A DNA stretch of 60,134 bases from Acidimicrobiia bacterium. Lineage in GTDB: Bacteria; Actinomycetota; Acidimicrobiia; Acidimicrobiales; Acidimicrobilacustridaceae. The translations under genes were made by a program, and so were the position numbers. The notes beneath the pieces are model-generated. The model saw only the letters and a program-made list of their open reading frames with translations. It had not been told where the DNA came from and ran no database searches. The DNA is taken from contig JAFIEP010000095.1 in assembly GCA_020832495.1 (NCBI GenBank), forward strand, positions 1 through 60,134, in the 5' to 3' direction. Below are positions 35,684-41,027 of this stretch, piece by piece. Numbering within the stretch: the stretch's first letter is position 1; each line of letters begins with the position of its first letter.

Positions 35684-36529
35684 TCAGGGGTCGACGTCGG
35701 TGGACCGTTGTGCGAACACCTCGGCGACGTGGCGGGTCACGGGGCCGGGCGCTTCGTGGCGGCCATCGCCCACCGGGTCGGCATTCACCCGGGCGACGGC
35801 TTGGACGTCCCTCGTCGATGACGTGAGGAACACCTCGTCGGCAGCGACCAGCACCGCGGGATCGAGGTCGGCCTCGCGCGCCTCGGGTACCCATTCGAGC
35901 ACCAGTTCCCTGGTGATCCCCGCCAGGCATCCCGATCCGAGGGTCGGGGTCAGGATCTCCCCCCGGTGGACCACGAAGACGTTGGAACCCGTGCCCTCAC
36001 AGAGTTGGCCGGTGGTGTTGCACAGGAGTGCCTCGCTGGCCCCGGCTCGATGAGCGGCCGCCAACGCCACCACGTTCTCGGCGTAGGACGTGGTCTTCAA
36101 GCCGGCCACGGCGCTCCGTTCGTTGCGGGTCCACTGCACGGTCACGACGTCGGTGACCGGTGGCGTCTCCGGCAGCGGTGCCAGCGCCATGATCACCGAC
36201 GGTGCGGCGTCGCCACGGTCGGATCCCAGTGGTGCCACCCCGCCGGTGAGGGTGATGCGCAGCCGGGCGCGGGTCTCACGGGACGCCGCCACCACCTCGG
36301 CAGCAGCGGCCCGGAGTTCGGCCTCGCTGAAGGGCACCACGAGGCCCAGCCCCGCCGCCGAGCGGGCCAGTCGGGCCAGATGACGTCGGAGTGCGAACGG
36401 CACACCGTTGGTCACCTTCAGCGTCTCGAAGACGCCGTCCCCCACGGTGATGCCGTGGTCGAAGACCGAGAGCGACGCCTCCTGGGGCGGAACGAGCACT
36501 CCGTCGAGCCATACCACAGCAGCAGCCAT
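35684..36529 (-). CDS. Class IV aminotransferase, PabC-like aminodeoxychorismate lyase
   Basis: A 281-residue fold type IV PLP enzyme. It shows FDHGITVGDGVFETLKV near the N-terminus, the PLP Lys in VAGLKTTSYAENVVA, and LCNTTGQLCEGTGSNVF, the cofactor-binding loop. VFLTSSTRDVQAV closes the fold. Members include aminodeoxychorismate lyase, branched-chain and D-amino acid aminotransferases. A pabB gene two genes upstream on the same strand favours the lyase, which makes 4-aminobenzoate for folate. ATG 36529 lies 6 nt after CACGAT, a near-match to a -10, suggesting a short or absent leader. Convergent with birA, 25 nt apart. Confidence 0.8.
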   Translation of the reverse strand: MAAAVVWLDGVLVPPQEASLSVFDHGITVGDGVFETLKVTNGVPFALRRHLARLARSAAGLGLVVPFSEAELRAAAAEVVAASRETRARLRITLTGGVAPLGSDRGDAAPSVIMALAPLPETPPVTDVVTVQWTRNERSAVAGLKTTSYAENVVALAAAHRAGASEALLCNTTGQLCEGTGSNVFVVHRGEILTPTLGSGCLAGITRELVLEWVPEAREADLDPAVLVAADEVFLTSSTRDVQAVARVNADPVGDGRHEAPGPVTRHVAEVFAQRSTDVDP

Positions 36530-36575
36530 CACGTCATCGTGGCGGTCGGCGCCGCCGACGGCAAGGACGGTGCCG

Positions 36576-38714
36576 TCACCGATCGTGGCGGTCGTTTCCC
36601 GTGTCGTCCCCGTCGGCGTCGCCGCCGGGTTGATCGAGCCTGTCCAACTCCTCGTCGACCACCTCAGCCAGCCGACCGGCAGCGGCGACGCTGAGGTGGG
36701 TCTCGTCCCGCCACTGCAGGTCGCCGTCGATCCTGGCGGGACACTGGCCGCCGGGACACAGCGCATCGGTCAGGTCGAGCGTGGTGCCGCCCCCGACGGC
36801 CGCAGCCTCGGTCTCGACCTGGTGCGCCAGGTCGAGCAGCGGCGAGTCGTCGACCGAACCGAGGGCATCGAAGGCACAGCGTCCTGGGTCGACCAGCACC
36901 AACAGGCGGGAGCAGTCCAGCGGGTCGGTCCACGTCGGGCGTGGGACGACGTTGATGACCACGACGTCGATGCCGGCCGCTTCGAGTGTCGCCACGACGT
37001 CGGCCAGGGCACTGGTGACGGCGGCCATCCGTTCCTCGACCGTTCGCAGGACCTCACCCGTCTCTGGGTCCACGATCAGGCGGCGGCCGCCTGATGCGAT
37101 GTAGTCGTCGGTCCGGTTCCCGATGAAGACCACATCGGGTGGGTCGGCGACGAGTTCGGTGAGGGACTCGGTGATGAACCGAGCGCACTGCCCACCGCCC
37201 CCGCCGAGTTCACGGCCGCCGTCCGCCACCACGGCGGGGTCCAGGAAGGGACACAGTGACGCTGAGGCCACCACCAGGTTGGTGTCGCGCCCTTCGATCG
37301 CACCGATGAGCGTCTCGCCGAAGTGGTTGGCGTTGGAGTCTCCGATGAGCACGACGGTGTTGGTGGCGTCCTCGGGGCCCCATCGGCACGAGTCCGCTGG
37401 TCGTGCCCCCAGAGGTGCGTCGTCGTGGCAGGGGTGCTCAGCGGTGCGCGCCACGGCCACCTGTTGGGAATCGTGGATCGTCTGCACGTCGGTGTTCGTG
37501 TCGAGCATCCGGTAGACGGGGAGTGCCGCCGCCACGAGCACGAGCGGTACGGCGATGCAGACACCGGCCAGCGCAACGGCTCGACCCGGACGAGGTGCCG
37601 CTGCTCCCCTCAGTGGTCGTTCCAAGAGGCGGTAGGAGGCCACGGCGGGCCCGAGCGCGACGATCGCGGCGATCACCAGGGGCGTGGCGCCGCTGTCGGG
37701 CCAGTAGGCGCGGGCGAAGACGATGAGCGGCCAATGCCAGAGGTACCAGCTGTAGGAGATGTCCCCCAGCCACACCAGGGGCTCGAGTCCGCGGGGCGTC
37801 GTCGCCGGTCCGGGCGACGCGCTCGTGCCGCCGTAGAGGACCAGCACCGCACCGAGCACGGGGATCAGTGCGGCGGCGCCAGGGAACAGGGTCGCGTCGG
37901 AGAAGCCGAGCGAGGCCCCGCCGATCAGGGCCAATCCGAGAACGACGCCGACGCGACGCACTGCCAGTGGGGCCAGCCAGGTCGCCGGGATCAACACGAG
38001 TGCGACGCCGGCTGCGAACTCCCAGGCTCTCGTCACTGGGGAGAAGAAGGCGAAGCGGAGCGGCACGGGCAGGGGTCCCAGCGAGCTGACGTAGGTGGTG
38101 ACGAGGCACGCAGCGAACGACACCACGCCGATGGAGGCGGTGACGAGGCGCAGCATGCCGAGCGACGTCCCCCACCGCCGCCCGAGGCGCCAGGCCACGG
38201 CCAACAGCGCCGGCACCACGAAGTAGAACTGCTCCTCGACCGACAGCGACCAGGTGTGCAGCAGCGGGTTGAGCTCTGCGGCGGCGTCGAAGTAGCCGTC
38301 GGGGCTGGCGTACAGGTAGAGGTTGGCGCTGAACAGCGCGGCGGCCACGGCGGTGGCCGAGGTGACGCCGTCGGCGCCGATCGGTGCCAGCAACGGCGAG
38401 AGGACGACGGTCGCTCCCAGCAGCACGGCGAGGGCCGGGAGCAGGCGCCGCGCTCGACGGGCGTAGAACGTGCGGAATGACACCCGACCCTCGGAGCTGA
38501 GCGACCGGACGAGGATCCGGCCGATGACGAAGCCGGAGATGACGAAGAACACGTCGACGCCGACGAAGCCTCCGGGCGCCACGATGTCGGCGTGGAACAG
38601 GACGACGATGAGCACGGCGATGCCGCGCAGGACCTGGACGTCGACCCGATGGCCCTCGAGGGGAGCCAGGCCCTCCCACGTGGCGCCGGATCGCACCTCG
38701 CTGTGCTCACTCAC
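36576..38714 (-). CDS. OafA/YrhL-type acyltransferase with SGNH domain
   Basis: A 712-residue membrane O-acyltransferase. The N-terminal acyltransferase-3 domain (about 18-385) has ten or so helices, the VLFHADI histidine and the GVDVFFVISGF signature, then SYSWYLWHWPLIV. One linker helix follows and then a periplasmic-side SGNH domain (about 430-695) with the GDSNANHF nucleophile Ser block and the WRDETHLS catalytic Asp/His. Such proteins acetylate cell-surface glycans. The start GTG 38714 gives SEHSEVRSG; AGG lies 9-10 nt upstream. The frame stays open 36 codons more but those overlap the pabB stop region. It sits between two folate-type genes. Confidence 0.85.
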   Translation of the reverse strand: MSEHSEVRSGATWEGLAPLEGHRVDVQVLRGIAVLIVVLFHADIVAPGGFVGVDVFFVISGFVIGRILVRSLSSEGRVSFRTFYARRARRLLPALAVLLGATVVLSPLLAPIGADGVTSATAVAAALFSANLYLYASPDGYFDAAAELNPLLHTWSLSVEEQFYFVVPALLAVAWRLGRRWGTSLGMLRLVTASIGVVSFAACLVTTYVSSLGPLPVPLRFAFFSPVTRAWEFAAGVALVLIPATWLAPLAVRRVGVVLGLALIGGASLGFSDATLFPGAAALIPVLGAVLVLYGGTSASPGPATTPRGLEPLVWLGDISYSWYLWHWPLIVFARAYWPDSGATPLVIAAIVALGPAVASYRLLERPLRGAAAPRPGRAVALAGVCIAVPLVLVAAALPVYRMLDTNTDVQTIHDSQQVAVARTAEHPCHDDAPLGARPADSCRWGPEDATNTVVLIGDSNANHFGETLIGAIEGRDTNLVVASASLCPFLDPAVVADGGRELGGGGGQCARFITESLTELVADPPDVVFIGNRTDDYIASGGRRLIVDPETGEVLRTVEERMAAVTSALADVVATLEAAGIDVVVINVVPRPTWTDPLDCSRLLVLVDPGRCAFDALGSVDDSPLLDLAHQVETEAAAVGGGTTLDLTDALCPGGQCPARIDGDLQWRDETHLSVAAAGRLAEVVDEELDRLDQPGGDADGDDTGNDRHDR

Positions 38715-38762
38715 CGCAGCTGACCTCGCCTTCCACCCTGTGGTCACCGCCGGCCGGGTGAG

Positions 38763-38790
38763 TGTAGTGGTGGAGTGGCCCAGGTCACGA
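38763..38790 (-). promoter_or_regulatory. Promoter candidate for the acyltransferase gene
   Basis: Read on the minus strand: GTGACC, a 16-bp spacer, then TACACT, about 50 nt before the GTG start. The -35 lies at the end of pabB. Confidence 0.4.
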
Positions 38791-39843
38791 TCGGCTCGCC
38801 ACCGCTCCTTCAGGGGAGGCAATCGACAGGAGACGTCGGGCCTTCAGCTCGGTCTCGCTCCACTCACCGTGGGGCGTGGAGTCGAACGTGATCGCCCCAC
38901 CGGTGCCGAAGCAGAGGTTCCCCTCGTCCACCCAGAAGGTGCGGATAGCCACGTTGAGATCGCCGTGACCCGTATCGGCGTCCACCCAGCCGAGCGCGCC
39001 GCAGTACGGACCGCGATCGACCGGCTCGAGCCGGGCGATGTGCTCGAGTGCCGCCAGCTTCGGCGCGCCGGTCACCGAGCCCGGAGGGAAGGTGGCGGCG
39101 ACGAGTTCACCCCAACCGACACCGGGGCGCAGGGTCCCTTCGATGGTGCTCACCAGGTGGACCAGCCCGGGGTGGTGCTCGATGTCGAACAGCGAGGGCA
39201 CCGTCACCGTGCCCCACTCGCAGACGCGACCGAAATCGTTGCGCACCAGGTCGACGATCATGAGGTTCTCGGCCCGGTCCTTGGCCCCGAGCCCGTCGGC
39301 AGTGGCAGCCGTGCCCTTGATGGGCGACGACCAGACCCGTTGGTGTCGACGGGAGAGGTAGCGCTCCGGTGATGCCGAGGCGACGTGCACGCCGTGGTCG
39401 GGCAGGCGGAGCACGGCGGAGAACGGCGCCGGGTTCCCCACGGCCAGGGCCGCACCGAGGGCGGCCACGTCGGTCGACCGTCGGCGGGACGGCGCCGGCA
39501 GCGGTGCCCGGAGGGTCCGGGTCAGGTTCACCTGGTACACCTCGCCGGCGGCGATGGCCGTGCGGATCTCCTCCACGGCCAGCTCGTAGGCACACTGGTC
39601 GAGGCTCGTGGTCCACGAGGGGCGCGCCGGGCCGCGCCACGGTCGACCGGGCCACGGTCGTGCCGGCCGACGCCGGGAGAAGCGCGCACACACCGGCGGG
39701 CCGGCGAAAGGCAGGAGTACGGCCCAGGTTCCCTCGCTGTCGAGTGCGGCCACGTCGGAGGTGACATCGACGAGGCCGGTGAGGATGTGGCCGCCCACCA
39801 CCGCCAAGGGTGCGGTTGTGGGGTCCGAGGCGGATGAGGGCAC
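38785..39843 (-). CDS. pabB: 4-amino-4-deoxychorismate synthase component I
   Basis: A 352-residue chorismate-binding enzyme. The core shows SPIKGTAAT, RAENLMIVDLVRNDFG, PPGSVTGAPK and EHIARLEP, all conserved in PabB/TrpE. It is shorter than the ~450-residue E. coli form because the N-terminal part is reduced. The PIKGT motif (Lys where TrpE has other residues) favours PabB. It converts chorismate to aminodeoxychorismate with a glutamine amidotransferase that is not in this window. The start is GTG 39843, 6 nt after TACGCT, so leaderless. It is divergent from the acyl-CoA dehydrogenase gene with only 23 bp between. Confidence 0.85.
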   Translation of the reverse strand: MPSSASDPTTAPLAVVGGHILTGLVDVTSDVAALDSEGTWAVLLPFAGPPVCARFSRRRPARPWPGRPWRGPARPSWTTSLDQCAYELAVEEIRTAIAAGEVYQVNLTRTLRAPLPAPSRRRSTDVAALGAALAVGNPAPFSAVLRLPDHGVHVASASPERYLSRRHQRVWSSPIKGTAATADGLGAKDRAENLMIVDLVRNDFGRVCEWGTVTVPSLFDIEHHPGLVHLVSTIEGTLRPGVGWGELVAATFPPGSVTGAPKLAALEHIARLEPVDRGPYCGALGWVDADTGHGDLNVAIRTFWVDEGNLCFGTGGAITFDSTPHGEWSETELKARRLLSIASPEGAVASRS

Positions 39844-39849
39844 AACCCC

Positions 39850-39859
39850 AGCGTACGAT
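39850..39859. promoter_or_regulatory. Overlapping divergent -10 boxes of pabB and acyl-CoA dehydrogenase
   Basis: The minus-strand -10 TACGCT (39855-39850) is 6 nt before the pabB GTG. The plus-strand -10 TACGAT (39854-39859) is 7 nt before the dehydrogenase GTG. The two hexamers share two base pairs, so both -35 regions must lie inside the opposite coding sequences. Confidence 0.6.
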
Positions 39860-39866
39860 CAGCGGT

Positions 39867-41027
39867 GTGGATCTCGAACTGAACGAAGAACAGCTCGCCT
39901 TGGCCAAGGTGGTGCGGGAGTTCGCCGCACAGGAGGTGGCACCCCATGCCGAGCGGTGGGATGCAGAGCACACCTTCCCAACCGACGTGGTGTTGGCCAT
40001 GGGGGAGCTCGGCTTGTTCGGCATCCCGTTCCCCGAGGAGGTCGGCGGTGGAGGAGCGGATCTGACCACGTTGTGCGTGGCCATCGAGGAGCTGGCCAAG
40101 GTCGACCAGTCGGTGGCCATCACCCTTGAAGCGGGTGTCGGCCTGGGGGCCAACCCCATCTACTGCTTCGGATCCGAGGACCAGCGTGCTGAGTGGCTGC
40201 CCGACCTGGTCGCCGGCCGGGCGCTGGCCGGTTTCGGACTGACCGAACCCGACGCCGGGAGCGATGCCGGCGCCACGAGGACCAAGGCGATCTTGGACGA
40301 CGACACCAATGAGTGGGTGATCGACGGCGAGAAGGCGTTCATCACGAACTCGGGAACCCCGATCACGTCCCTGGTCACCGTGACCGCCGTGACCGACCGA
40401 ACGGACGGTCGGCCCGAGATCTCCACCATCGTGGTGCCGGCGGGAACGGCCGGCTTCGAGGTCCAACCGCCGTATCGGAAGATGGGCTGGCACGCCTCGG
40501 ACACCCACGGACTGTCGTTCGACGGATGCCGGGTCCCGGCAGCGAACCTGCTCGGGGCGCGGGGTCGAGGCTTCGCCAACTTCCTGGCCATCCTCGACGA
40601 CGGCCGAGTTGCCATTGCGGCGCTTGCCGTGGGGGTGATCGAGGGATGCCTGGCCGAGTGTCAGCGCTACGCCACCGAACGGGTGGCCTTCGGTCGAGCC
40701 ATCGGAGCGAACCAGGCCATTGCCTTCAAGGTCGCCGACATGGCGGTCATGGCCGACGCCGCTCGCGCCCTCACCTACCGGGCGGCGGCTCTCCGCGACG
40801 CCGGCAAGCCCTTCAAGCGGGAGGCGGCCGTGGCAAAGCTGTACGCCACCGAGGCAGCGGTGACGGTGACGAGAGAAGCCACCCAGGTGTTCGGGGGCTA
40901 CGGGTTCATCGACGAGACCCCGGTCAGCCGTCACTACCGCGATGCCAAGATCCTCGAGATCGGTGAGGGAACCAGCGAGGTCCAGCGGCTCGTGATCAGC
41001 CGGGAACTCGGCCTGCCCGTTCGTTAG
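39867..41027 (+). CDS. Acyl-CoA dehydrogenase
   Basis: A 386-residue flavoenzyme that oxidises acyl-CoA to the 2-enoyl thioester. GFGLTEPDAGSDA is the FAD/substrate loop, AFITNSGT the flavin-binding strand, and GGYGFIDETPVSRHYRDAK and EIGEGTSE the C-terminal signature with the catalytic Glu in the short-chain/glutaryl position. The length is typical. The exact substrate (butyryl-, isobutyryl-, 2-methylacyl-) cannot be told. The start is GTG 39867, seven nt after its -10, so probably leaderless. It is followed by the LCP gene, which has its own promoter, after 95 nt. Confidence 0.9.
   Translation: MDLELNEEQLALAKVVREFAAQEVAPHAERWDAEHTFPTDVVLAMGELGLFGIPFPEEVGGGGADLTTLCVAIEELAKVDQSVAITLEAGVGLGANPIYCFGSEDQRAEWLPDLVAGRALAGFGLTEPDAGSDAGATRTKAILDDDTNEWVIDGEKAFITNSGTPITSLVTVTAVTDRTDGRPEISTIVVPAGTAGFEVQPPYRKMGWHASDTHGLSFDGCRVPAANLLGARGRGFANFLAILDDGRVAIAALAVGVIEGCLAECQRYATERVAFGRAIGANQAIAFKVADMAVMADAARALTYRAAALRDAGKPFKREAAVAKLYATEAAVTVTREATQVFGGYGFIDETPVSRHYRDAKILEIGEGTSEVQRLVISRELGLPVR

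Follow-up and report, generated by a model that had tools for sequence, protein, structure and literature searches.

A putative bidirectional core promoter with overlapping -10 boxes between predicted leaderless pabB and acyl-CoA dehydrogenase genes in Acidimicrobiales

A pabB-type gene and an acyl-CoA dehydrogenase (ACD) gene of an Acidimicrobiia bacterium diverge from a junction in which two TANNNT boxes on opposite strands have their central TA in common, and this junction is probably a bidirectional core promoter of the housekeeping-sigma type, in the 23-bp configuration, giving leaderless pabB and ACD messages. The reading draws on three features that the sequence itself displays, namely the geometry of the junction, the enrichment of leaderless boxes in the genome, and the conservation of the core in relatives. 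The window, i.e. the whole stretch of DNA that was analysed, comprises 60,134 nucleotides of contig JAFIEP010000095.1, from an assembly of 4.46 Mb in 147 contigs (GCA_020832495.1). The elements of the locus, in window coordinates and as read from the sequence unless stated otherwise, are as follows.

38785..39843, minus strand: pabB-type chorismate-binding enzyme (aminodeoxychorismate synthase component I), predicted leaderless GTG at 39843
39867..41027, plus strand: ACD, predicted leaderless GTG at 39867
39841-39843, minus strand: pabB start codon, CAC in the forward sequence and GTG on the minus strand
39867-39869, plus strand: ACD start codon, GTG
39844..39866: spacer separating the two start codons, 23 bp
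39855 down to 39850, minus strand: pabB -10 box TACGCT, gap of 6 nt to the GTG
39854..39859, plus strand: ACD -10 box TACGAT, gap of 7 nt to the GTG
39854..39855: TA step common to both -10 boxes
39850..39859, unstranded: bidirectional -10 core AGCGTACGAT, from column information in 16 aligned loci

Judged from their translations, both divergent frames are real genes. The pabB product matches PF00425 far above the cut-off (2.3e-69), its top PDB match is an aminodeoxychorismate synthase (4grh, 3.8e-51), and its top NCBIfam model is PabB-clade2 with 295.4 bits, the cut-off of that model being 408.55. The translation contains PIKGT, which we take to be a motif relevant to PabB. In the ACD product, the N-terminal, middle, and C-terminal domains (PF02771, PF02770, and PF00441) are all above cut-off, with a best E-value of 6.4e-48, and the top PDB match is 7szv (2.1e-154); an NCBIfam search with this product gave no model at its cut-off. 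The closest named relatives of the ACD protein are metagenome-assembled genomes (MAGs) titled Acidimicrobiales or similar, including one Candidatus Microthrix sp. (L032), in which the 300 bases around the ACD start are identical to those of L003, a locus of the window's own family group. On the 3' side of pabB (35684-38822, minus strand) an acyltransferase-3/SGNH gene comes first, followed by a class IV aminotransferase gene, which is pabC-like as judged by its neighbourhood only; the acyltransferase-3/SGNH gene is thus flanked by two likely p-aminobenzoate genes.

The first-pass annotation described divergent GTG starts 23 bp apart, with the hexamers TACGCT and TACGAT sharing two base pairs; its coordinates and hexamers are exact in the sequence, and the observation of overlapping boxes is confirmed at this level. 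When two TANNNT boxes share their TA and each lies 6 nt from its start, the starts are 23 bp apart by arithmetic, and since one gap is longer by one base here, the distance between the predicted starts is 24 bp. Gene calling that is blind to promoter motifs places the pabB start at 39801; therefore, the start at 39843 is taken from the -10 box and the relatives. The annotation had also placed each -35 region within the opposite coding sequence. That of the minus strand does fall within ACD codons, but a consensus scan of the junction gave no -35-like site and column information across the 16 aligned core loci showed nothing clear as a -35 element, a search that is confounded by coding constraint since the minus-strand region lies inside ACD codons. 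A search of the window against Rfam at gathering thresholds gave no match.

The distance between box and start codon at the junction agrees with a signal seen throughout the genome. A total of 1128 genes were called without any upstream signal in 1.33 Mb (about 30% of the assembly), and 1111 of their starts were scored. TANNNT precedes 87, 28, and 33 of them at gaps of 6, 7, and 8 nt, respectively (148 in total), as compared with 17, 6, and 5 for the reversed motif TNNNAT (28 in total) and with 0 to 7 for TANNNT at each gap from 10 to 39 nt. The leaderless signal of the genome is therefore strong at the gaps that pabB and ACD show, and its commonest gap, 6 nt, is also that of the pabB box. Leaderless genes of Actinobacteria have TANNNT about 12 bp 5' of the start codon, according to the part of PMC3160421 considered here, and both junction boxes, with gaps of 6 and 7 nt, are placed in this way. 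They are alike in box sequence and distance, and the overlap of divergent boxes is where the junction differs from that description. Among 177 divergent pairs in the 1.33 Mb, with in-frame starts up to 45 nt away allowed, 18 have a leaderless box on both sides and none has the reversed motif on both; a box on one side only occurs in 73 pairs, versus 28 with the reversed motif. The pabB/ACD junction is the only pair with overlapping boxes in this sample.

Bidirectional promoters of prokaryotes have been described by Warman, Grainger and colleagues (PMC12825309, PMC10268837). In the accessible sections of PMC12825309, the commonest distance between divergent starts is 18 bp, distances of 10 and 23 bp occur as well, and polymerases cannot bind both ways at once. 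The layout of TANNNT boxes sharing TA corresponds, by our inference, to the box layout of the published 23-bp class as those sections present it: the -10 elements on opposite strands share bases, one orientation of the polymerase excludes the other, and at pabB/ACD the opposing elements share TA with a predicted start distance near 23 bp. By its sequence features the promoter belongs to this known class and probably works like it, being an example of a described kind and not a new kind. It differs from the examples given there in that it has high-GC TANNNT boxes instead of TATAAT and in that both predicted starts are start codons; moreover, the class is known from mapped starts, whereas the present case is known from sequence, as an ortholog-specific element through one order. 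In Mycobacterium tuberculosis, according to the passages of PMC3898074 considered here, closely juxtaposed divergent promoters are common, there is no -35 consensus, and one example is the leaderless prpD with its divergent regulator. The junction resembles the prpD case as a divergent leaderless pair in an actinobacterium with no -35 consensus, while box overlap is not described in those passages. A literature search on bidirectional, leaderless, divergent, and overlapping promoters, and on pabB with acyl-CoA dehydrogenase, gave no paper on the locus or on overlapping boxes of two leaderless genes as judged by titles and the beginnings of abstracts, among which subscription papers were few.

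On this basis, RNA polymerase would bind in either of two orientations and open the DNA around the shared TA, and transcription would start at or beside the first base of either start codon, yielding leaderless pabB and ACD mRNAs. One orientation would be occupied at a time, and the effect on expression would depend on promoter strength, being probably little at basal activity. Two-way transcription, the start sites, the sigma factor, and steric exclusion are thus what we infer for the junction. That two polymerases cannot occupy it together, as had been proposed, is a consequence of the geometry, and the sections of PMC12825309 considered say the same of the class. The further claim that the two genes are mutually exclusive at initiation, and hence in effect, is not supported by the five bidirectional promoters of E. 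coli reported in the same sections, where little competition occurs at basal activity and competition arises only once one direction is activated. Nor is this about the shortest divergent promoter imaginable, a description that is wrong because classes of 18 and 10 bp are described in that source.

Conservation of the core was assessed in relatives from 61 genomes and in named contigs. Of 110 loci examined, 61 were set aside since the fetched stretch gave no match to pabB (whether through a contig end, a paralog, or true absence) and seven as duplicates; the remaining 42 are distinct loci with divergent pabB and ACD. In 22 of the 61 genomes (L001-L022), ACD is matched over nearly its full length at about 64% identity or more; divergent pabB adjoins ACD in 18 of the 22, and the core is present in 13 of the 18. 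Overall, the core AGC[GC]TACG[AC]T is found in 16 of the 42 divergent loci, as AGCGTACGAT in eleven, AGCCTACGAT in four, and AGCGTACGCT in one. A generic search for ANNNTANNNT between pabB and ACD gives 17 of 42 loci, and the pattern read backwards gives four. L057 was rejected as a shared-core locus, as it matches ANNNTANNNT (with ACCCTACGAT) but has its pabB box elsewhere; counted in, the total would be 17/42. In the 16 aligned loci, the ten columns of the core have 1.2-2.0 bits, as compared with at most 1.1 in the 45 bases on either side. The outer A, the central TA, and the outer T were fixed by the selection of loci and are therefore no evidence of conservation; the six inner columns were free, and they are nearly identical across the 16 loci. 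Since the core is conserved across families, the overlapping boxes are better supported than the first-pass annotation, made from one sequence, could know.

The start codons vary more in position than the core does. Both lie 5-9 nt from their box in nine of the 16 loci, one in six, and none in one. In the nine loci with both starts at leaderless distance, the predicted starts are 23-26 bp apart, L012 and L052 having 23. The core is retained also in L017 and L048, whose ACD starts now stand 53 and 59 nt away from it and follow a purine-rich stretch that, read by eye, resembles a Shine-Dalgarno sequence. On the pabB side of L018 no ATG, GTG, or TTG stands at leaderless distance; a CTG lies 7 nt after TAGGCT, seemingly in frame by eye, and L018 pabB possibly starts there.

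Such variation bears on the alternative that one box only is active as a promoter, the other gene having a leadered start or relying on a promoter located within the coding sequence of its neighbour. TANNNT has three fixed bases only, and among the core loci a pabB start at leaderless distance is lacking in L002, L005, and L021 and an ACD one in L017, L046, and L048. On the other hand, both boxes stand 5-9 nt 5' of in-frame starts here and in eight other core loci, and within both boxes the inner bases hardly vary among the 16 loci, so that a single active box seems unlikely. It seems very unlikely, furthermore, that the pseudo-palindromic core is mainly the operator of a regulator and resembles two -10 boxes by chance. 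The inner bases are conserved beyond what TANNNT needs, as an operator would be, even though TACGCT and TACGAT make up just 8 and 5 of the 148 boxes that precede called starts of this genome. However, in relatives with separate boxes (L004, L036, and L057) TACGCT or TAGGCT at pabB and TACGAT at ACD recur alone at leaderless distance; therefore, the inner conservation can follow each promoter. As a regulon mark, AGCGTACGATY was rejected, occurring once in this genome versus twice for its reversed control. Across the 61 genomes it has 22 places in 21 genomes, ten being the pabB/ACD junction; at the other twelve, the sequence fetched (at most 3 kb) matched neither protein.

The two-way promoter is thus preferred over both. 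The core is present in at least six family-level groups (f1, f4, f8, f14, f15, and f24) and in three further named-contig loci. That it occurs so widely, and persists at loci whose start codon has shifted, favours selection acting on the promoter but not clearly on the sharing itself. It is quite possible, though not favoured, that the promoter is real and the sharing functionless, being forced by closeness; such a reading is compatible with the two-way promoter. Gaps of 6 and 7 nt in a 23-bp spacer force the boxes to overlap, two of the ten loci of group f1 (L003 and L004) have no core, and many loci elsewhere have separate boxes. The presence of the core in the six or more groups, also where the start codon moved away, argues against it.

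According to the first-pass annotation, the idea would be refuted by relatives that have both genes but long, unrelated spacers. The relatives divide on this point: the core is kept in the 16 loci and missing from 26 of the 42, so that sharing is not obligatory. In twelve of the 26, including L057, both genes have TANNNT at leaderless distance with the boxes apart, and the predicted starts are 39-282 bp from each other. Six loci with no shared core (L034, L036, L038, L039, L057, and L063) have kept the pabB-side half as AGCGTA or AGCCTA and are missing the outer T of the plus-strand box, a pattern that would follow from ACD having adopted a new box farther downstream; in L063 no ACD box was found.

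In a tree built from the pabB and ACD proteins together (42 rows, with some deep forks weak), the shared state requires eight changes, five of them forced by starred branches. Random labels require 13.1 on average, and 0-1 of 500 shuffles were as low as eight. The core also occurs in early branches, and one clade of eleven rows is wholly without it. From this distribution, an old shared core with repeated loss may be suggested, while counts of changes cannot separate gain from loss. It has been suggested that the junction links folate synthesis to acyl-CoA oxidation; the conserved neighbourhood is the only basis for this, and such a link does not follow from it. A bolder version is speculative and seems improbable to us: the shared core would be an old regulatory device of the order Acidimicrobiales, retained from early on because alternative use of one TA couples p-aminobenzoate/folate synthesis to the expression of ACD, and ACD would have acquired a separate -10 box downstream in those lineages that gave up the coupling. 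Bidirectional promoters are known from maps of start sites, and here one may be traced by sequence alone through many families. The order in which it was traced is represented mostly by MAGs and includes lineages with boxes apart, so that the role of sharing could be studied along a series that nature provides.

The layout may also be sought elsewhere by a simple pattern for finding candidates in high-GC genomes, CAY-N6-ANNNTANNNT-N6-RTG (23 bp, gaps of 6 and 6). It has 139 matches in the 61 genomes versus 41 for the reversed control, many of the 139 being orthologs within one genus (g12), and without that genus (21 genomes removed, 40 left) there are 74 versus 25; in this genome it has none, versus one for the control. 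The pattern with gaps of 6 and 7, the spacing of the pabB/ACD locus itself, is less enriched (162 versus 109 for the raw reversed control). This genome has fewer TA than AT steps (0.0077 versus 0.0230); therefore, raw reversed controls are not composition-matched and are probably too high. When the controls were scaled by bare-core counts of the genome itself (77/333 and 36/431), rough expectations were 9.5 versus 139 seen for the 6/6 pattern, 25 versus 162 for 6/7, and 7 versus 23 for the 18-bp pattern, figures that serve as a guide only since one genome stands for 61. An 18-bp class with two leaderless starts was rejected as a candidate, having 23 matches in 14 of the 61 genomes versus 83 in the reversed control.

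Twenty hand-chosen places, with no control places, were fetched (17 of the 6/6 pattern, two with one gap longer by one base, and one of the 18-bp pattern), and at eight of them each of the two start codons opens a frame of 150 codons or more; for two of these eight (L214 and L215), the codon scores were weak with a model that had been trained on the genome of the window. A pattern scan of the whole assembly gave a second believable overlapping pair, outside the 1.33 Mb sample, at C11:28957-28985 (L230), where a gene with a flavin-reductase domain and one with a bacterial PH domain share TA and are both predicted to be leaderless. Other matches in the assembly are less convincing: one of the overlapping pattern at C85 has no long frames, an 18-bp match at C107 is doubtful, with frames of 91 and 63 codons, and another at C26 is also doubtful and lies inside the sample of 177 pairs, yet was not picked up there. 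On the evidence of these predicted pairs, the double-leaderless layout with a shared TA is not special to the pabB/ACD locus.

As a minor observation, genes for a peptide deformylase and a small-domain methyltransferase diverge in two genera with TA-sharing boxes, at L223:1859-3065 (G003) and in L215 (G028). The stretch is a CAY...RTG of 28 bp; L223 was identified by Pfam and L215 by the likeness of its translations, and similar stretches occur in several g12 genomes and in G013.
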